Of a DNA stretch of 64,000 bases, positions 8,408 through 36,130 are shown in pieces; positions within the stretch are counted from its first letter, which is position 1, and each line of letters opens with the position of its first letter. A program made the translations under genes and the position numbers. The notes under the pieces were generated by a model. It was not told the origin of the DNA, did not search any database, and saw nothing but the letters and a program-made list of their open reading frames with translations. The DNA is from Janthinobacterium sp. GW458P (lineage in GTDB: Bacteria > Pseudomonadota > Gammaproteobacteria > Burkholderiales > Burkholderiaceae_D): the NCBI RefSeq assembly GCF_002127585.1, contig NZ_NEGZ01000017.1:1-64000 (forward strand), read 5' to 3'.

Positions 8408-9955
8408 ATGGAATGGTTATTTGACCCGACAATCTGGGTCGGCCTGCTGACGCTGGTCGTACTGGAAATCGTACTGGGTATCGACAACCTGATCTTCATC
8501 GCCATCCTGGCCGAAAAGCTGCCGCCGCACCAGCGCGACAAGGCGCGCGTGCTGGGCCTGACGCTGGCCCTCGTCATGCGCCTGGGCCTGTTGTCGCTGA
8601 TTTCCTGGCTGGTCACCCTGACCACGCCCTTGTTTGCCATCTGGACCTTCTCGTTCTCGGGGCGGGACCTGATCCTGCTCGTCGGCGGCCTGTTCCTGCT
8701 GTTCAAGGCCACCACCGAGCTGCACGAACGCCTCGAAGGCGTCACGCACGCCCAGACGGGCCCGAAAGTCTACGCCGGCTTCGGCCTGGTGGTGGCGCAG
8801 ATCGTCGTGCTCGACGCCGTCTTCTCGCTCGACGCCGTCATCACGGCCGTCGGCATGGTGGAAAACCTGTACGTGATGATGGCCGCCGTCGTCATTTCCA
8901 TCGTCGTCATGATGCTGGCCTCGAAAGTGCTGACGCGCTTCGTCAACGCCCACCCCACCGTCGTCGTGCTGTGCCTGAGCTTTTTACTGATGATCGGCCT
9001 GTCCCTGGTGGCCGAAGGCCTCGGCTTCCACATCCCGAAAGGTTATCTGTACGCGGCCATCGGCTTCTCCATCGTCATCGAGTTCTTCAACCAGCTGGCG
9101 CGCCGCAACATCCTCAAGCTGCAGTCGAACGCCCCGCTGCGCGACCGCACGGCGCAAGCCGTATTGAGCCTGCTGGGCGGGCGCAAGGGCCGCGAGGCGG
9201 CCGAGGAGCACGAAGTCAAGGAGCTGCCCGACGTCTCCGCCTTCGGCGTGGAAGAGCGCAACATGGTCAGCGGCGTGCTGACCCTGGCCGAACGCTCGAT
9301 CCGCTCCGTCATGACGCCGCGCGGCGACGTCTCGTGGGTGAACCTGAACGACAGCAGCGAAAAGATGCTCAAATTGCTGCGCGATACGCCGCACAGCATG
9401 ATTCCTGTGTGCAATGACGACCTCGACAACGTGGTCGGCATCGCCCGCAGCAAGGACCTGATCGAGGATCTCGTCTCGCACGGCAAAATCGACCCGGCCA
9501 GCATGCGCGAAGCCATCGTCGTGCCGGAAGCGGCCGGCGTGCTGAAAGCCATGGAAACCCTGAAACGCTCGCGCGGCCAGCTGGTCCTGGTGGTCGACGA
9601 GTTCGGCACGGTGCAGGGCGTGCTCACGCCGATCGACATCCTCGAAGCCATCGCCGGCGAATTCCCCGACGAGGACGAGCAGCCCGACGTGGAAGTGCTG
9701 GGCCCCGGCCACTGGCGCATCGACGGCGCCACGGACCTGCATTACCTGGAGCAGGTGTTCGAGACGGCATCGCTCGTCAGCGAAGACGGCGAGTACAACT
9801 CGCTGGCCGGCTTCCTGCTGGCGCACTTTGAAAACATGCCGGCCGTGGGCGAAGTGCTGGAACTTGGCGATCTGCGCTATGAAATCGTCGAGGCCGACGA
9901 GCGCCGCATCGCCTGCGTGGACGTGCGCCGCATCGAGCCCGATCACAGTTTGTAA
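8408..9955 (+). CDS. TerC-domain membrane protein with CBS pair and CorC/HlyC domain (YoaE/YegH-like)
   Basis: The product is 515 aa. Residues about 1-230 are a TerC-type bundle of seven helices with the family signature EIVLGIDNL near the start and [10 protein letters not shown] in helix 4 or 5. Residues about 290-415 hold two CBS repeats that usually bind adenosine nucleotides. Residues about 425-510 are a CorC_HlyC transporter-associated domain. The order and length match Escherichia coli YoaE and YegH. TerC proteins are linked to metal, chiefly Mn, export; the CBS/CorC tail suggests gating. ACAAGG sits about 10 bp before the ATG. Confidence 0.92.
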
Positions 9956-23870: not shown

Positions 23871-23965
23871 TTTTCAACATTCCTTTGAAAGTGTTTCGGT
23901 ACGCGCCCCCTTTTTCCAGGGCGACAATACGACCATCATACGGTATCCACTCAACGAGGAAGCAC

Positions 23966-24982
23966 ATGAAAGCCATCGCCTACCGCCACAGCCTGCCCAT
24001 CACGGATGCCGACGCCCTGCTCGACATCGCTCTGCCCGTGCCCGTCGCCACGGGACGCGACCTGCTCGTCGCCGTCAAGGCCATCTCCGTCAACCCCGTC
24101 GACGCCAAGGTGCGCAGGAACCGCGCGCCGAAGGACGGCCAGCCCGAAGTGCTGGGCTGGGATGCGGCCGGCGTCGTCACCGCCGTCGGTCCCGACGTCA
24201 CCCTGTTCCAGGTGGGAGACAAGGTCTGGTACGCGGGCGCCATCAACCGCCCCGGCAGCAACAGCGAATTTCAATTGGTCGACGAGCGCATCGTCGGCCA
24301 CATGCCGGCCAGCCTGGACTTCGCCGCGGCCGCCGCCCTGCCGCTCACGGCGATCACGGCCTGGGAATTGCTGTTCGACCGCCTGCAGCTCAGCCGCGAC
24401 AAGAGCCTGAGCGGCAAGTCGCTGCTGGTGATCGGCGCGGCCGGCGGCGTCGGTTCCGTGCTGGTGCAGCTGGCCCGGCAATTGACGGGCGTCACCATCA
24501 TCGGCACGGCCTCGCGTCCCGAGACGGCGGCCTGGGTGCAGGAACTGGGCGCCCACCACGTGATCGACCACAGCCTGCCGCTGGCCGCCGAAATCACGCG
24601 CCTGGGCTTGCCGCCCGTCGATTACGTCATCAGCCTGAACCAGACCGACAGGCATTTCGAGCAAATCGTCGAACTGATCGCGCCGCAGGGGAAATTTGCC
24701 CTGATCGACGATCCCGAGCACATCGACGTGCGCAAGTTCAAGGGCAAGAGCGTGTCCCTGCACTGGGAACTGATGTTTACCCGTTCGCTGTTCCAGACGG
24801 CGGACATGATCCAGCAGCACGCCTTGCTGGAGGAACTGGCGCAGCTGGTGGACGCGGGCGTCATCAGGAGCACCGTGGCCGAGCGCTTCGGCACGATCAA
24901 TGCGGCGAATTTGAAACGCGCGCATGCCCTGCTGGAGAGCAATACGGCGAAGGGAAAAATCGTCCTGGAAGGTTTTAACTGA
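23966..24982 (+). CDS. Zinc-type alcohol dehydrogenase-like NAD(P)H oxidoreductase (quinone reductase group)
   Basis: The product is 338 aa. It has a GroES-like N-terminal domain (VKAISVNPVDAKVR, LGWDAAGVV) and a Rossmann domain with GAAGGVGSVLVQLA near residue 160. The catalytic-zinc cysteine pattern of true alcohol dehydrogenases is absent, as in quinone oxidoreductases. CGAGGAAGCAC precedes the ATG at 23966. It is closely similar to the gene at 29180-30193, down to the shared KGKSVSLHWE and RAHALLES stretches. Stop codons abut those of the converging kinase gene. Confidence 0.9.
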   Translation: MKAIAYRHSLPITDADALLDIALPVPVATGRDLLVAVKAISVNPVDAKVRRNRAPKDGQPEVLGWDAAGVVTAVGPDVTLFQVGDKVWYAGAINRPGSNSEFQLVDERIVGHMPASLDFAAAAALPLTAITAWELLFDRLQLSRDKSLSGKSLLVIGAAGGVGSVLVQLARQLTGVTIIGTASRPETAAWVQELGAHHVIDHSLPLAAEITRLGLPPVDYVISLNQTDRHFEQIVELIAPQGKFALIDDPEHIDVRKFKGKSVSLHWELMFTRSLFQTADMIQQHALLEELAQLVDAGVIRSTVAERFGTINAANLKRAHALLESNTAKGKIVLEGFN

Positions 24983-26695: not shown

Positions 26696-27097
26696 TTACG
26701 CCGCGTGCTGGCGGAAGTTCGTTTCCGCCGACCATGCCGTGCCGGCGCGGGCCAGCAGCACGGCTTCGCCATCGGCCAGCCAGTCGTCCGCGTCGGCAAT
26801 CTTCCACATCGCTTGCAGCAGCTTGCGGCGCAGGTCCGGGTCCGTGATTTCATCGAGCAGGCTGTCGATCACGCCATGGGCCAGCTGCACGGCGCCATGC
26901 ACGGTCGAGGTCAGCATGTCGTCGCACAGGTCTTGCAGCAGCCGTTGAAAAGCGGCGGGCGGCAAGTCGATATGTTCGAGGATCTTGCTGCCGTGCAAGG
27001 CCTGCAGTTCGGAGCTGTCCAGGTTGCCATCGACGATCATCATCAGGGCCAGGATACGGCCCGCTGCCTGGGGACTATTGATTTCATAAGTACGCAT
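26696..27097 (-). CDS. TerB-like helical protein
   Basis: The product is 133 aa, all alpha and acidic, with the TerB-type MMIVDGNLDSSELQAL segment near residue 20 and a matching IADADDWLADGEAVLL segment near 105, both resembling acidic metal-binding loops of the TerB/DjlA-N fold. AAGGAATGATC precedes the ATG at 27097; the ORF opens 5 codons earlier without a site. It follows an Alx/TerC gene by 63 bp on the same strand, with a terminator between. The pairing with TerC suggests a metal or tellurite-stress link (inference). Confidence 0.72.
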   Translation of the reverse strand: MRTYEINSPQAAGRILALMMIVDGNLDSSELQALHGSKILEHIDLPPAAFQRLLQDLCDDMLTSTVHGAVQLAHGVIDSLLDEITDPDLRRKLLQAMWKIADADDWLADGEAVLLARAGTAWSAETNFRQHAA

Positions 27098-27120
27098 GAT
27101 CATTCCTTCCATTGTTATTC

Positions 27121-27160: not shown

Positions 27161-28120
27161 TTACTTTTTGCCGCGGGTGGCAAACACGCTGGCCAGGCAG
27201 CTTGCCGCGATCAGCACGAACACCACCAGCAGCGACGCTTCGACCGGCACGTGGAACCACGGCATGACCAGCATCTTTGCGCCGATGAACACGAGCACCA
27301 TCGCCAGGCCATACTTGAGCAGATGGAAGCGGTCAGCCACGTCCACCAGCAGGAAGTACAAGGCGCGCAAGCCCATGATGGCGAACAGGTTCGACGTGAA
27401 GACGATGAACGGGTCCGTCGTGATGGCGAAGATCGCCGGGATCGAGTCGACCGCGAACACCAGGTCCGTCACCTCGATCAGGATCAGCACCAGGAACAGC
27501 GGCGTGACATAGCGCAAACCGCCCTTGTTCACGAAGAAACGTTCGCCGTGGTCGCCGTCGGCCACCCGCAGGTGGCGGCGGGCAAAACGCAGCACCGGGT
27601 TGTTCGCCACGTCCGGCTCGGCGTCGGCCGCCACCAGCATGCGGAAGCCCGTCACCAGCAGGAAGGCGCCAAACAGGTACAGCACCCAGCTGAACTCGCT
27701 CACCACCCAGGCGCCGGCCATGATCATCACGGCGCGCATGATGATCGCGCCCAGCACGCCGTAAATCAGCACGCGGCGCTGGTACTGCATCGGTACCTGG
27801 AAGGCGCCGAAGATCAGCAGGAACACGAACACGTTATCGACCGACAGCGCTTTCTCGATCAGGTAGCCGGAGAAAAACTCCAGCGCCTTCTGGCTGGCGA
27901 TCTCGGGTCCGGCCGTGCCGTTCAGGTACCACCACAGGCCGCCGTTGAACAGCAGGGCCAGGCTGACCCACACGAGCGACCATGTCGCCGCTTCCTTGAC
28001 GCTGACCTTGTGCGCCTTGTTGCCGCCGAAGACGAACAAATCGAGCGCCAGCATCAGCAATACAAAAGCGATGAAGCCGGCCCACATGGGCGCCGTTGCA
28101 ATGCTCTCCAGGCCGTTCAT
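27161..28120 (-). CDS. TerC-family membrane protein (Alx-like)
   Basis: The product is 319 aa with about nine transmembrane segments. It has the Alx hallmarks: WSLVWVSLALLFN, YLIEKALSVDNVFVF with acidic residues inside the membrane, and EVTDLVFAVDSIPAIFAI in the second half. Escherichia coli Alx is an alkaline-pH-induced protein linked to manganese export. GCGGAGGCCGCC gives a ribosome site. The ATG overlaps the stop of a 14-codon upstream ORF (ATGA). The gene is divergent from an NhaR-type regulator. Confidence 0.92.
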   Translation of the reverse strand: MNGLESIATAPMWAGFIAFVLLMLALDLFVFGGNKAHKVSVKEAATWSLVWVSLALLFNGGLWWYLNGTAGPEIASQKALEFFSGYLIEKALSVDNVFVFLLIFGAFQVPMQYQRRVLIYGVLGAIIMRAVMIMAGAWVVSEFSWVLYLFGAFLLVTGFRMLVAADAEPDVANNPVLRFARRHLRVADGDHGERFFVNKGGLRYVTPLFLVLILIEVTDLVFAVDSIPAIFAITTDPFIVFTSNLFAIMGLRALYFLLVDVADRFHLLKYGLAMVLVFIGAKMLVMPWFHVPVEASLLVVFVLIAASCLASVFATRGKK

Positions 28121-28161: not shown

Positions 28162-28210
28162 GATGTCTCTCCTTGCATGAATGAGCAGTCATCATAGGCG
28201 CAATTGAAAC

Positions 28211-28256
28211 ATCGAACAAATCGAATATAATGAAGAAATACATCGAAAAACTCGAT
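28211..28256 (+). promoter_or_regulatory. Paired LysR-type operator between nhaR and terC/alx
   Basis: Two related sites, ATCGAACAAATCGAA (28211-28225) and ATCGAAAAACTCGAT (28242-28256), both fit T-N11-A within an inverted repeat; the second is perfect (CATCGA-N5-TCGATG). Their centres are 31 bp apart, about three helical turns. This is the usual layout of a LysR recognition site and activation site, 20 bp before the NhaR-type gene. Confidence 0.65.
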
Positions 28257-28276
28257 GCAACAACCAAGGATCGACG

Positions 28277-29179: not shown

Positions 29180-30193
29180 CTACGCGGCGCCGACGACGAT
29201 CTTGCCCGGCTGCCCGCCACTCTCCAGCAGCGCATGCGCGCGCCGCATGGTGGCCGCGTCCATCGGCGACAAACGCTGCCGCAGGGCAGAGCGCAGCACG
29301 CCCTGGTCCAGCAGCGCCGCCACGCGTTGCAGGATGCGGTGCTGTTCCTGCATGTCGGCGGTGGCGTACAGGGGCCGCGTAAACACCATTTCCCAGTGCA
29401 GCGACACGCTCTTGCCCTTCAGCGGCGCCGCATCGAAAACAGCGTGGTCGTCGATGACGGCCAGCTTGCCGTGCGGCGCGATGATCTGCGTCAAGGCCGC
29501 AACATGGCGCGCCGTGTGCGACAGGGCGGCAATGTGCGTGACGGGGGCGACGTGCAATGCCGCCACCTGCTCCGGCATGGGCCGCGCATGGTCGATCACA
29601 TGGTGGGCGCCCATGGCGCGGCACCAGTCCGCGCTGTCGTCGCGCGAAGCCGTGGCGATCACGGTAAAACCCGTCAGCCGGCGCGCCAGCTGGGTCAGCA
29701 TCGATCCGACGCCGCCCGCGCCGCCCAGCACCAGCAGGCTGCCCCGCTCCCGCCTGTCGCCGGGCGCAATGGCAAAACGCTCGAACAGCAGCTGCCACGC
29801 CGTCAGCGCCGCCAGCGGCACGGCCGCCGCCTGCGCAAAATCGAGCGTAGCCGGCATGCGCGCGGCGATGCGCTCGTCGACCAGGTGGTATTCGGCGCTG
29901 GCACCCGCGCGGTCGAACGAGCCCGCGTAATACACGGCCTGCCCCGGCGCGAACAGGGTCACGGCGCTGCCCACCGCGTGCACGACGCCGGCCGCATCCC
30001 AGCCCAGGGTGGCGACGGCTTGCGGCACGGCGACCAGCCCGGCCCGCACCTTGGTGTCGAGCGGATTGACGCCCACGGCGCGCACGCGCACCAGCACGTC
30101 GCGGGGGCCGGGCACGGGCATCTCGCCCTGCGTATCGAACAGGCCGTCCTGTTCGTCCACGCTGCTGCCCTTGTTGAAACCGATCATCTTCAT
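29180..30193 (-). CDS. Zinc-type alcohol dehydrogenase-like oxidoreductase, paralogue of the gene at 23966-24982
   Basis: The product is 337 aa from the ATG at 30193, which has GGGAG 6 bp before it; the track of open codons extends to 30283 without homology. It has a GroES-like domain (VNPLDTKVR, LGWDAAGVV) and a Rossmann loop (GGAGGVGSMLTQLA). The substrate is unknown. It is divergent from a LysR gene with 95 bp between starts, the same arrangement and spacing as its paralogue. Confidence 0.9.
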   Translation of the reverse strand: MKMIGFNKGSSVDEQDGLFDTQGEMPVPGPRDVLVRVRAVGVNPLDTKVRAGLVAVPQAVATLGWDAAGVVHAVGSAVTLFAPGQAVYYAGSFDRAGASAEYHLVDERIAARMPATLDFAQAAAVPLAALTAWQLLFERFAIAPGDRRERGSLLVLGGAGGVGSMLTQLARRLTGFTVIATASRDDSADWCRAMGAHHVIDHARPMPEQVAALHVAPVTHIAALSHTARHVAALTQIIAPHGKLAVIDDHAVFDAAPLKGKSVSLHWEMVFTRPLYATADMQEQHRILQRVAALLDQGVLRSALRQRLSPMDAATMRRAHALLESGGQPGKIVVGAA

Positions 30194-30288
30194 TGCATGC
30201 TCCCAGCTAAATCTGCATGGTAGGCAGCCCCACGGGAAAGAAAAATATGCTTCAATGCGTTTCACTACTGACCAAACTGTCATGAATC

Positions 30289-31292: not shown

Positions 31293-32615
31293 ATGAAGCA
31301 CTTGCACGACATCCCCTCTGCCTTCAAGCATGAATTTGCCAACCCGCGCCTGTGGTGGTCGCGCGCCGTCGTCGTCGGCATGGCCGCCGTCGCGGGCCTC
31401 GTCGTCGTGGGCTTTACGTGGCTGGCGGAAACAGCGCTCGATTGTTTTCTCTTTTTTAACGGCAATGCCTGGTGGTTCGCCCTGCTGTGGACGCCCGCTT
31501 GCGCCGCCCTGCTCGTCTGGCTGACGCGCCGCTACGCCATGGGCGCGGCCGGCTCCGGCATCCCGCAAGTGATGGCCACGCTGGACCCGGCCGTGGCGCC
31601 CGAGCAGCGCTCCTTGTTCGTCTCCCTGAAACTCAGCGCCGCGAAAATCGTCCTGACGGCGGGCGGCTTGCTGGGCGGACTCTCGCTGGGGCGCGAAGGG
31701 CCATCCGTGCAGATCGCCGCCGGCGTGATGCTGGCCGCGCGCCGCTGGCTGCCCCGTCACTCGCAGGTGAGCGCCCATTCGCTGCTGGTGGCCGGTGGCG
31801 CGGCCGGCATCGCGGCCGCCTTCAACACGCCGCTGGCGGGCGTCATGTTCGCCATCGAAGAACTGTCGCGCTCGCCCGAGCAACGCAACAGCGGCTTGAT
31901 TGTCGCCGGCATCGTGCTGGCAGGCATGATGGCCGTCTCCATCCACGGCAACGCCACCCACTTCGGCATCATCCATCCCGGCCCCATCGGCCTGGCGCTG
32001 GCCCTGCCAGGCTTGCTGGTGACCCTGGTGGCGGGCGTGGCCGGCGGCCTGTTCGCGCGCCTGCTATTGGCCTCCGCCCGGGGCAATCCGCTGGGAAAAT
32101 TATCGGCGTGGAGAAAGCACCGGCCCGTGCTGTTCGCCGCCGCCTGCGGTTTGCTGGTGGCGGCCATCGGCATCGCCAGCCACGGCGCCACCTTCGGCAG
32201 CGGCACCGTGGCCACGCGCGCCATGCTCGAAGGTTCCAGCGATGCGGCGCCGGCCTTTGTCGCCTTCAAATACGTGGCGACGTGGCTGACCGTGTGGTCG
32301 GGCGTGCCGGCCGGCATCTTCGCGCCGTCGCTGGCCATCGGCGCCGGCATCGGGCATGACATTGCGCAATTGCTGCACTATCCGCATGCACCGGCCCTGA
32401 TCGCGCTGGGCATGGTGGGTTTCCTGGCCGCCGCCACGCAGGCGCCGCTGACGGCGTTCATCATTGTCATGGAAATGGTCGACGGCCACGGCATGGTGCT
32501 CAGCCTGATGGCTTGCGCCGTGGTGGCCAGCACCGTCTCGCGCGTGCTCAGCGAACCGCTGTACGGGGCGCTGGCGCAGCTGCAGCTGCAGCGGCTGCCG
32601 GCGCCGCCGAACTAG
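31293..32615 (+). CDS. ClC-family chloride channel or Cl-/H+ antiporter
   Basis: The product is 440 aa with 10 or more membrane helices. The three selectivity motifs are present: GSGIP (87-91), GREGP (133-137, gating Glu135) and GIFAP near residue 345. The gating glutamate allows antiport. Bacterial members serve acid resistance or anion balance. The C-terminus overlaps the converging YwqK-like gene by 4 bp. It has no cytoplasmic CBS domains. Confidence 0.92.
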   Translation: MKHLHDIPSAFKHEFANPRLWWSRAVVVGMAAVAGLVVVGFTWLAETALDCFLFFNGNAWWFALLWTPACAALLVWLTRRYAMGAAGSGIPQVMATLDPAVAPEQRSLFVSLKLSAAKIVLTAGGLLGGLSLGREGPSVQIAAGVMLAARRWLPRHSQVSAHSLLVAGGAAGIAAAFNTPLAGVMFAIEELSRSPEQRNSGLIVAGIVLAGMMAVSIHGNATHFGIIHPGPIGLALALPGLLVTLVAGVAGGLFARLLLASARGNPLGKLSAWRKHRPVLFAAACGLLVAAIGIASHGATFGSGTVATRAMLEGSSDAAPAFVAFKYVATWLTVWSGVPAGIFAPSLAIGAGIGHDIAQLLHYPHAPALIALGMVGFLAAATQAPLTAFIIVMEMVDGHGMVLSLMACAVVASTVSRVLSEPLYGALAQLQLQRLPAPPN

Positions 32616-33436
32616 AAATGGCTGCAGGGGCGCAGCAAGCGGCCGTCCTGCCATGCGCAAACGGTGCGCGTGCCATCCTCGGCCCAGCTGCGCTCCAGGC
32701 CGTGCTTTTCCCCATGCACGTAATGGAGGTGCGATTTTTCGCGGCCGTCCGGCCACCAGGCCTGGTGCAGGCCGGTGCGCCGCCCGTCCAGATACGTCCC
32801 CCGCTCGGCCAGCCGGCCATTCGGATGAAACGCCTCCGCCTCGCCCGACAGCACGCCATCGGCAAAATGGGCGCGGTTGCTGACCTGGCCTTGCTCGTCA
32901 AAGCTCAGGTACTCGCCATCGGCGGGCTGGCCCGCCTGGTAGCGCAATTCACGGCTCAGTTGGCCATTTGCATGGTAGTGGCTATGCAAGCCCTCGTACT
33001 CGCCGTCGCGGTAAGCCTTGCGGCTTTTTAGCGTGCCATCCGCGTACCAGGCGACGTTGACGCCGTCGAAATCGCCCTCGCCATTGCGCTCTTCGAGCAG
33101 GCCCAGCTGGCCATCGGCGAAATACACGCTGCGCTGATGAACATAGTTGAGCCGCGTCGTATCCGCGTCGCGCAGCCAGGCATCCATGTGCAGCTTGCCT
33201 GGCGGCTGCGCGAAATGCAGCTGCCAATGCCAGGCCTGGCGGGCCGCATCGTGGCGCAGCGGCGCGCGCTGCTCGTAGATGGCGGCGGCACGTTCGACGG
33301 CTTGGTAGTCGGCGTCGAAATACAGGATGGCCGGCGACGGCTCGGCAGGCAAGGCCGGGGAGGCCAAGGCATAGACCATGGAAACAGGTGAACCGGCCAG
33401 GACGGCGGCCAGCAGAACGGAATTGAGTATCTTCAA
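32612..33436 (-). CDS. Secreted YwqK/MORN-like repeat protein
   Basis: The product is 274 aa with a signal peptide (about 1-23). From about residue 105 onward there are repeated units of the type YADGTLKSRKAYRDGEYEG, the pattern of the toxin-antitoxin YwqK antitoxin/MORN-variant family. The last unit carries the shared HYVHGEKHGLERSW stretch and the chain ends with two cysteines. In Bacillus YwqK is a cytoplasmic immunity protein; a signal peptide makes that role unlikely here. Two longer relatives lie at 34.1-36.1 kb. Confidence 0.8.
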   Translation of the reverse strand: MKILNSVLLAAVLAGSPVSMVYALASPALPAEPSPAILYFDADYQAVERAAAIYEQRAPLRHDAARQAWHWQLHFAQPPGKLHMDAWLRDADTTRLNYVHQRSVYFADGQLGLLEERNGEGDFDGVNVAWYADGTLKSRKAYRDGEYEGLHSHYHANGQLSRELRYQAGQPADGEYLSFDEQGQVSNRAHFADGVLSGEAEAFHPNGRLAERGTYLDGRRTGLHQAWWPDGREKSHLHYVHGEKHGLERSWAEDGTRTVCAWQDGRLLRPCSHF

Positions 33437-33508
33437 TGCATGCTTTCATCAACGCTGCGATAGCGCCGATGATAAGGGCTAACAGTGTGGTCCAGCCACA
33501 CGCTAGCC

Positions 33509-34000
33509 CTACATGGTGAAAGGAAACGGCTGCAGCCCCGCCTTGCGGTCATCGGGGGCGACGACGGCCAGCAAGGCCCTCAAGCCCCGGTTCAGATGCG
33601 CCAGGCTGTCGGCATCGAGCTGGCCCAGGGCGCTGGGCAGCAAGCCGCGTGCCGGCTGGGGCGCGCCGGCGATGACGGCCTGGCCTTCGGCCGTCAGGGT
33701 CAGCGTGACCACGCGCTGGTCGGGCTGGTCGCGCGCCTTGCGCACATAGCTTTTTTTCACCAGCGCATCGACCAGGTTGCTGGCCGTCGTCTGGTGGATG
33801 GACATCCGGGCAGCCAGTTCGCCCATGCGCAGCCCCGGCAGCTCCAGCAATTCCTGCATCACCCACAATTGCGCGCCCGACACGCCGCACTGCTTCTCGA
33901 TCTGCGCCGAGTGCCGCTGCGCCGCGCGCATGACGACACGCATGTTTTGCAAGGCCAGGCTTTGCGCCTTGACCATCGCCGATACTTCCGCTTCCACCAC
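33509..34000 (-). CDS. MarR-family transcriptional regulator
   Basis: The product is 163 aa with the MarR winged-helix pattern: LGMRMGELAARMSIHQTTASNLVDALVKKSYVRK-like core around residues 60-95, followed by the wing residues RDQPDQRVVTLTLTAEG. It sits between the secreted YwqK-like genes on the same strand. Its ligand and target are unknown; self and the flanking YwqK genes are candidates. Confidence 0.88.
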   Translation of the reverse strand: MVEAEVSAMVKAQSLALQNMRVVMRAAQRHSAQIEKQCGVSGAQLWVMQELLELPGLRMGELAARMSIHQTTASNLVDALVKKSYVRKARDQPDQRVVTLTLTAEGQAVIAGAPQPARGLLPSALGQLDADSLAHLNRGLRALLAVVAPDDRKAGLQPFPFTM

Positions 34001-34083
34001 CGTTGCCTCCAGTTATCAGATCCGGCATCGCGCCTGCTGGCGGACCGGAATCCCTGCATGATACCTGCAAAGGCGGGCGGCTC

Positions 34084-34911
34084 CTAGCGCATGGACACTG
34101 GCTCTCCGGCTTGCCACGCCTGTTCCAGCACCAGCTTGCCGGACGGGTCCCACTGGCGCTCGACGCCGTGCTTCTTGCCGTGCACATACGGCACGAGCTG
34201 CTGCAGGCTGCCGTCGGCGTACCAGCTTTGCAGCAAGCCGTGACGCTGGCCGTCGCGCATGGGCGTGACCTGGGCGCGCACGCCGTCGTCATGCCACTGC
34301 GTCAGGTCGCCCTGCTCGCGCCCCTGCGCATCCTGTTGCCAGGCAATGGCCGGCTGGCCGTTGGCGCCCCACTTCTGCATGCGCAGCAGCTTGCCCTTGC
34401 GGTACAGCGCCTTCTGCGCCAATTGACCATTGTCATGGCTTTCAAACGACCAGCCGTCGGGCTCGCCATTGCGCCACATCATGCTGGCGAGTACCTTGCC
34501 ATCGGGCGCCAGGGTGACGGCCTCGCCATCCTGCTGGTCATGGATGAAATGACTGCGCTGGAACAGCTTGCCGTCGGCGTAAAACAATTGCTGCAGCCCA
34601 TGCATCCTGCCGCCCTTCAGGAAGGCGCGGCTGCTCACCTTGCCATTCGGGCCATACGACACATACTCGCCATCGGCCATCTGCTGGCCGTGGTAGCGGA
34701 TGCGGTTCATCAGCTGGCCATTCTCATGGTAGGTCTCGGCAATGCGGTCGCGCCCGTTCGGCAGCAGGGTCACTTTTTGCTTGAGCCGGCCGCTGTCATA
34801 GAACGATGTGCCGCCAGCCGGCGCTTGCGCCTGCGCCGCCAGCGGCAGCACCGTCAGGAGCGCCGCCAGCAGCGCCAGGCGCAGGGTCCGTATGGTCAGT
34901 CGATATGGCAT
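34084..34911 (-). CDS. Secreted YwqK/MORN-like repeat protein
   Basis: The product is 275 aa from the ATG at 34911; a longer frame to 35208 overlaps the upstream gene. A signal peptide covers about 1-29 (ending AQAQA). About nine repeat units follow, each near 22 residues with the G-x-x-YH-x-NGQL pattern. It shares near-identical blocks with the next gene, such as NGRDRIAETYHENGQLM versus NGRDSISETYHKNGQLM and VPYVHGKKHGVERQWD versus VPYEHGKKHGVERQWD, so they are recent tandem duplicates. It lies 8 bp after that gene. Confidence 0.82.
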   Translation of the reverse strand: MPYRLTIRTLRLALLAALLTVLPLAAQAQAPAGGTSFYDSGRLKQKVTLLPNGRDRIAETYHENGQLMNRIRYHGQQMADGEYVSYGPNGKVSSRAFLKGGRMHGLQQLFYADGKLFQRSHFIHDQQDGEAVTLAPDGKVLASMMWRNGEPDGWSFESHDNGQLAQKALYRKGKLLRMQKWGANGQPAIAWQQDAQGREQGDLTQWHDDGVRAQVTPMRDGQRHGLLQSWYADGSLQQLVPYVHGKKHGVERQWDPSGKLVLEQAWQAGEPVSMR

Positions 34912-34919
34912 GCGGCCCC

Positions 34920-36053
34920 CTACTGCGCCGCCACCGGCTGGCCATCGTGCCAGGCCTGCTCCAGCACCAGCTTGCCCGTCTTGTCCCATTGGCGCTCGAC
35001 GCCGTGCTTCTTGCCGTGTTCGTAAGGCACGATCTGCCGCAGGCTGCCGTCGCTGTACCAGGTCTGCAGCAAGCCGTGGCGCCGGCCCTCGACAAACGGC
35101 GTCACGCTGGCGCGCACGCCGTTGGCATGCCAGTCCGTCGTGTCGCCGTGGTCGCGCCCCTGCTCGTCTTTCTGCCACGCAAAAATGGGCCGGCCATTCG
35201 GGCCCCACGTTTGCAAGCTGAGCACGGCACCTTTCCGGTACAGCGTCCTGTTCGACACGACGCCATTGCCATGGCTTTCAAACGACCAGCCGTCGGGCTG
35301 GCCGTGCACCCACACGGTCCGGGCCAGCACGCTGCCGTCCTCGGCATACATGACAAACTCGCCCTCGCGCTTGCCATCGACGTGCCGTCCCCTTCGGAAC
35401 AGCTTGCCATCGGCATAAAACGATTCCTCCAGGCCATCCATCTGGCCATTGCGCCGGTACGAGCGGTTGCTGACGGCGCCATTCGCGCCATACGACACGT
35501 GCTCGCCATCGGCCATCTCGTCGCCGTGATACAGCGTGCGGCTCATCAGCTGGCCGTTCTTGTGATACGTTTCCGAGATGCTGTCGCGCCCGTTCGGCAG
35601 CGCCGTCACCTTCTGCTGGATCTGGCCATTCTCGAAGTACACGCAGCCGCCCAGCAGCTCCTCGCCCTGGGCATTGAAGTAGGTTTCGCGCAGCAACTGG
35701 CCATTTTCGTAGTAATACTTGCGAAAACGCACGAACTTGATCTGGCTCAAATCCAGGTCCGTGGCATAGGTTTCAAAGGCCAGCACGCCCGGCGTGTCGG
35801 GAAATTCGAGCCGCACATGCCAGGCGCCCAGCGCCTCGTCGCGCACGGGCGGCGTGCGCAGCGCATACGCGGCGCGGCGCTGATTGCTGGGCATGAAATT
35901 TTCATCCAGATACATGGTGTGGTCTTCCTCCTGCAAGGTTGGCGTTGGCGCTGGCGACTGCGCCGCCGGCTGTTCCTGTGCCGCCAGCGGCAAGGCCAGG
36001 GCCATGCCCAACAGTGCGGCCAGTGCCGCGCGCGTCGTCTGTGGTGTGTGCAT
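34920..36053 (-). CDS. Secreted YwqK/MORN-like repeat protein, long form
   Basis: The product is 377 aa from the ATG at 36053 with a signal peptide ending near residue 25 (PLAAQ). A Gln/Pro-rich linker and about 75 residues of non-repeat domain (LRTPPVRDEALGAWHVRLEF) precede about 11 repeat units. The non-repeat part corresponds in position to the N-terminal half of the protein at 32612-33436. It is the first gene of a two-gene operon with the shorter duplicate. Confidence 0.82.
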   Translation of the reverse strand: MHTPQTTRAALAALLGMALALPLAAQEQPAAQSPAPTPTLQEEDHTMYLDENFMPSNQRRAAYALRTPPVRDEALGAWHVRLEFPDTPGVLAFETYATDLDLSQIKFVRFRKYYYENGQLLRETYFNAQGEELLGGCVYFENGQIQQKVTALPNGRDSISETYHKNGQLMSRTLYHGDEMADGEHVSYGANGAVSNRSYRRNGQMDGLEESFYADGKLFRRGRHVDGKREGEFVMYAEDGSVLARTVWVHGQPDGWSFESHGNGVVSNRTLYRKGAVLSLQTWGPNGRPIFAWQKDEQGRDHGDTTDWHANGVRASVTPFVEGRRHGLLQTWYSDGSLRQIVPYEHGKKHGVERQWDKTGKLVLEQAWHDGQPVAAQ

Positions 36054-36130
36054 TGTGTTCCGTTGCAATGATATTGTGCGGCTGCCATCATAATGGAAAG
36101 CAACGTTTTCCCCCGTCACGAAAGAAAGCC

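Follow-up and report, generated by a model that had tools for sequence, protein, structure and literature searches.

The Na+-responsive regulator NhaR of E. coli has been singled out as the sole validated gene-control protein selective for Na+ (PMC9337991) and, according to PMC10157491, stimulates nhaA, osmC and pgaABCD. PMC6904343 names it as one of nine confirmed regulators of rsd and rmf, and deletion of nhaR is reported to raise the expression of rmf and rsd together with RMF and 100S ribosomes (PMC10003395). A full TCG-N7-CGA site, TCGTAAAAAACGA, lies 103 bp before the start codon of E. coli nhaA, and nhaR is located downstream of nhaA. This site has no good partner, the score being 2/6 at 31 bp and 4/6 at 32 bp, and thus a two-site form is not established for E. 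coli. Proteins of the TerC/Alx family have been assigned roles in Mn export or metalation, and these roles differ: TerC of Vibrio acts in weakly acid medium, whereas alkaline pH is the condition for E. coli Alx (PMC13274385). The E. coli alx gene carries the yybP-ykoY Mn riboswitch (RF00080). No paper on NhaR control of TerC was found by title or abstract among the open-licence PMC literature.

The window analyzed here is a stretch of 64,000 nucleotides (C66:1-64000) from a Janthinobacterium assembly of 6,284,785 bases rated 100% complete. In contrast to E. coli nhaAR, nhaR of the window is divergent from terC/alx, across a gap of 156 bp (Table 1), in a genome without a detected nhaA. The first-pass annotation had named an NhaR-type regulator facing an Alx-type gene, and both assignments are borne out by family models scoring above their cut-offs. 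The regulator is recognized by the same NCBIfam equivalog model as E. coli NhaR, for which E. coli alone exceeds the cut-off among 14 control genomes, and the presence of both an HTH and a substrate-binding domain makes it a LysR-type protein. Its product is 100% identical to the counterpart in Janthinobacterium sp. TND4EL3 and about 37% identical to E. coli NhaR, which forms a very long branch; the HTH stretches are alike (TPQTITGQI in E. coli, TPQSISGQL in the window). Glu134 (E134) of E. coli NhaR, which we take to have a role in the Na+ response, aligns with Ala in the window protein. This column is variable in the family, and for that reason the residue was dropped as a signal marker. The TerC/Alx protein belongs to the same subfamily as E. 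coli Alx, with 57% identity across 298 residues. From the 48-bp gap behind terC, the TerB-like gene is possibly co-transcribed with it. The same order of terC and a TerB-like gene is seen in the fetched Janthinobacterium loci and in several Massilia and Duganella loci, and at four loci (L027, L028, L029 and L036) the TerB-like gene directly faces nhaR. In one Janthinobacterium lividum record (L015), the terC reading frame is broken in two by a frameshift or sequencing error.

Table 1. Features at the divergent terC-nhaR locus, in window coordinates
Feature	Position	Strand	Evidence
TerB-like gene, 48 bp 3' of terC	26696..27112	-	PF05099 35.7 bits (cut-off 24.4)
terC/alx, TerC/Alx family metal homeostasis membrane protein, 319 aa; predicted NhaR target	27161..28120	-	TIGR03718 413 bits (cut-off 246.4); PF03741
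Putative terC promoter TTGTTC (28219-28214)-N17-TATGAT (28196-28191), -35 inside site 1	28191..28219	-	read from the sequence
nhaR promoter TTGAAA (28204-28209)-N16-TATAAT (28226-28231), overlaps site 1	28204..28231	+	11/12 sigma-70 matches
Site 1 ATCGAACAAATCGAA; activation-site position for terC, within nhaR promoter spacer	28211..28225	.	28212-28224 = 11/13 to E. coli NhaR consensus
Site 2 ATCGAAAAACTCGAT; recognition-site position for terC, just past putative nhaR start	28242..28256	.	28243-28255 = 11/13 to E. coli NhaR consensus
nhaR-family LysR-type regulator, 299 aa	28277..29176	+	NF008284 239.7 bits (cut-off 219); HTH_1 (PF00126) + LysR_substrate (PF03466)

The window also contains another TerC domain (159 bits) at 8447-9016 (+), within a 521-aa frame. 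By eye, a series of adjacent, mutually related genes whose short repeated motifs look MORN-like is found at 32612-36119 (-), and two similar quinone-oxidoreductase-like genes lie at 23885-24982 (+) and 29180-30283 (-), each with a LysR-type gene near it.

Between terC and nhaR, two related 15-bp sites start 31 bp apart, as the first-pass annotation had noticed, and they share 12 of 15 bases. Site 2 is a perfect dyad with two 5-bp arms, and the symmetry of site 1 is weaker (8/15). Both match equally well (Table 1) the E. coli NhaR consensus TCgaAAAAatCtA, which is one author's matrix as given in PMC6307784. On both strands of the 64 kb, matches of at least 11/13 to TCgaAAAAatCtA occur at four places, namely site 1, site 2, 30662 and 44221; 100 first-order Markov windows contained 0.22 such matches on average and never more than 3. 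Two or more such matches within a 156-bp gap of the same composition appeared in a fraction of 0.00025 of 20000 simulated runs. As a control, the best consensus matches at E. coli nhaA reach just 10/13, one upstream of the gene and one inside it. The T-N11-A pattern, tried as evidence on its own, has 2527 matches in the window and was dropped as uninformative. The motif ATCGAAAAANTCGAT occurs without mismatch at site 2 and nowhere else in the genome.

LysR-type regulators generally use an activation site near -35 and a recognition site near -65 of the target promoter. For the nhaR promoter, 0.2 sites of its grade are expected in the region. Site 1 occupies the stretch between its -35 and -10 elements, and site 2 comes shortly after the nhaR start, which is predicted near 28238. 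A terC promoter was not returned by the consensus promoter scan because its putative -35 (TTGTTC, 3/6) is weak. With the predicted terC start at about 28184, the centre of site 1 falls at about -34 and that of site 2 at about -65. With promoters and starts as predicted, the locus would fit the divergon layout, in which a recognition site at about -65 and an activation site at about -35 lie over the regulator promoter. As in LysR-type divergons, the two sites are about three helical turns apart; the operator sequence and the target differ from those of that class.

On this arrangement we favor, as the probable reading, a dedicated LysR-type divergon in which NhaR activates terC and represses itself, with Na+ or alkaline pH as the likeliest inducer. 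An NhaR-family oligomer would bind site 2 for recognition and site 1 for activation, and upon binding of the inducer it would rearrange at site 1 and so assist transcription initiation by RNA polymerase at terC, perhaps with the TerB-like gene included. Bound in this way, NhaR would also cover the -35/-10 spacer and the start region of nhaR and is proposed thereby to repress its own gene. The Na+/alkaline-pH signal is suggested by analogy to E. coli NhaR.

This arrangement recurs in relatives. Site 1 and the nhaR -10 are unchanged in all 17 fetched Janthinobacterium loci, which also preserve the distance between the sites and the putative terC promoter on the other strand. A contig scan found 128 relatives, of which 80 were kept. 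Two full sites at 31 bp are present in 42 of the 80, that is, in 36 of the 51 TerC-adjacent relatives and 6 of the 29 others, some of which lie on short contigs (in L025, nhaR is preceded by 328 bp). The divergent promoter pattern TTGTnn-N17-TAnnnT on site 1 is found in 58/80 (46/51 TerC-adjacent and 12/29 others), and ATATA.TT of the nhaR promoter is kept in the relatives selected for the site profiles. Among 50 NhaR genes less than 75% identical to each other, the spacing of 31 bp ranks first among 56, with a mean pair score of 9.16 of 12, followed by 22 bp with 8.56, the mean over spacings being 7.85 (sd 0.28). Thirty single-base shuffles gave at best 7.60, which is a weak control because the all-spacing mean exceeds it. 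At 80% non-redundancy, a pair score of at least 10 of 12 was obtained for 37 of 69 NhaR genes, comprising 16/23 with TerC, 12/22 with other module genes, and 9/24 with none or nhaA only. Site profiles were built only from loci with a score of at least 10 (16/23 TerC-adjacent genes and 21/46 others at this non-redundancy); conservation of their TCG/CGA columns therefore follows from the selection itself.

The first-pass annotation had proposed that NhaR was rewired here from nhaA to metal export at high pH, and had named the neighborhood in relatives as one check. Its statement that no nhaA is near can be strengthened, since a PF06965 search of the assembly, rated 100% complete, found nothing at E <= 0.001. 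The survey of relatives lends no support to a rewiring peculiar to this locus. Across 150 genomes from the order (thresholds E <= 1e-50 for NhaR, E <= 1e-80 for Alx and E <= 1e-20 for nhaA), 64 NhaR-family genes were found in 53 genomes, and Alx lies within 5 kb of 24 of the 64, always divergently (24/24). This count is a lower bound, taken on the same contig only, because contig ends hide neighbors; L145 (G221), for example, has an uncounted TerC piece beside nhaR. The divergent NhaR-Alx pair is thus a common one in the order. No nhaA was found within 10 kb of any of the 64 genes. At the genome level, NhaR co-occurs with Alx (odds ratio 9.9, p = 1.2e-9) but not with NhaA (odds ratio 1.25, p = 0.68), both values being uncorrected for kinship. 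Outside the order linkage to nhaA is frequent: in a class sample, nhaA adjoins 10 of 25 NhaR genes, 3 of those 25 genes coming from this order.

A wider set of 133 loci consists of L001-L146 minus 13 rows, namely other LysR genes (L003-L008), overlapping duplicates (L090, L093 and L094), rows without NhaR (L091 and L092) and rows with less than 200 bp upstream (L106 and L112). Near-copies included, 63 of the 133 have a divergent TerC within 3 kb, 41 have another module gene (hpf, htpX, Bax1-I, TerB-like, DUF475 or CaCA), and 29 have none or nhaA only. The other proteobacterial NhaR loci share the regulator family, and 31 bp is favored over the whole set, but their divergent genes are different: related operators with the 31-bp spacing front hpf-, htpX- and Bax1-I-type genes, which further undercuts a rewiring special to this locus. 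In L096, L098, L102 and L104, nhaR lies between nhaA on one side and hpf and Bax1-I on the other. In L048, L054 and L066, a divergent Na/Ca exchanger faces the nhaR relative, with an NfeD gene beyond and an SPFH gene following; the SPFH call was Pfam-tested in L066 and extends to L048 and L054 by membership of the same cluster. On a tree of 69 rows made by a quick method, TerC linkage changes 10 times, at least 6 of the changes being forced by starred branches; this tree counts linkage changes and does not order TerC and the other linkages in time. The NhaR-TerC link is widespread. Because its layout is common in relatives, the locus does not stand alone and represents a variant, so far little studied, of a familiar kind of switch.

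Within its own genome, NhaR looks local in its action, because the paired pattern without mismatch occurs once; weaker targets may exist. Allowing up to 2 mismatches, ATCGAAAAANTCGAT matches at 105 places and its reversed control at 14. Twenty of the 105 were fetched, and at the 19 besides the window no partner 31 bp away scores above 4 of 6; the remaining 85 are covered through the genome-wide search with the paired pattern. With up to 2 mismatches this pattern has 14 places against 6 for the control, of which the window is the sole perfect match and one other differs at a single position, and no second NhaR target is claimed from either search. A second NhaR-family gene (L002, C12:19460-20317) faces a DUF475 (TerC-like) gene, and no 31-bp pair was found upstream of it. 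For hpf, the genome has two weak matches with 30-32% identity.

Several other explanations, which overlap and are not mutually exclusive, have to be weighed against the divergon with activation of terC. Site 1 covers the putative terC -35, so that its occupancy could block polymerase, and NhaR might simply repress terC until the inducer relieves it, with no activation at all. Activation at terC is indeed not a given, as E. coli NhaR is negative on rmf, and the rise of rmf and rsd reported for the nhaR deletion (PMC10003395) points the same way. We regard pure repression as unlikely, however, because a pair of sites near -65 and -35, together with a poor -35 element, is what LysR activators usually show. 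The targets nhaA, osmC and pgaABCD, described as stimulated by E. coli NhaR (PMC10157491), also speak against it. Both sites lie on or beside the nhaR promoter, and 40 of the 64 NhaR genes of the order have no Alx gene within 5 kb on their contig, which would suit a regulator controlling only its own promoter next to a passive terC. Such passivity is improbable in view of the divergent -35/-10 phased on site 1 in nearly all TerC-adjacent relatives and of the invariable divergence of the close NhaR-Alx pairs.

The signal might be Mn2+ or another divalent metal, NhaR having turned into a metal sensor for a metal exporter, as the assigned roles of the TerC/Alx family (PMC13274385) would allow. 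Unlike E. coli alx, terC of the window has no Rfam match and a LysR regulator as its candidate control: no Rfam family reaches the gathering score in the window, indicating that no Mn riboswitch precedes terC, and the predicted terC leader is about 64 nt as compared with 177 positions of RF00080. On the other hand, the sole RF00080 riboswitch found in the genome (L168, C82:27391-27573) stands before another gene, whose product is UPF0016/MneA-like by eye, so that it is the Alx family by itself that suggests metal export. The same-spacing operators before hpf and htpX in relatives do not point to Mn either, and we consider a metal signal quite unlikely. The dyad of site 2 could in principle be a transcription terminator hairpin, since a terminator-like element was scanned on the minus strand at 28259-28239, with a mean of 0.5 in shuffles. 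This element, however, lies upstream of the predicted terC start, its A-rich centre becomes T-rich or mixed in some relatives (e.g., L035 and L076), and conservation extends to site 1, which lacks perfect dyad symmetry; on position, variable centre and conserved site 1, the terminator reading was rejected as highly improbable.

We tentatively suggest, as an idea with rather less than an even chance, that in many proteobacteria the NhaR family may be a Na+/alkaline-pH sensor that serves, through a conserved two-site operator with 31-bp spacing, a stress module comprising metal handling by TerC, the membrane protease HtpX, Bax1-I proteins and a ribosome-hibernation factor, and not, or not only, sodium pumping. 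The locus in the window would be its trimmed terC(-terB) form, with TerC answering to ion or pH stress and not to a Mn riboswitch. The effect of E. coli NhaR on rmf and 100S ribosomes described in PMC10003395 recalls the hpf neighbors, although it is negative in E. coli. If true, ion stress would be linked to ribosome hibernation. If NhaR relatives control TerC, HtpX and hibernation factors, this would offer a direct route to why TerC/Alx matters at high pH, and the label "NhaR, activator of nhaA" can mislead for genomes without nhaA.
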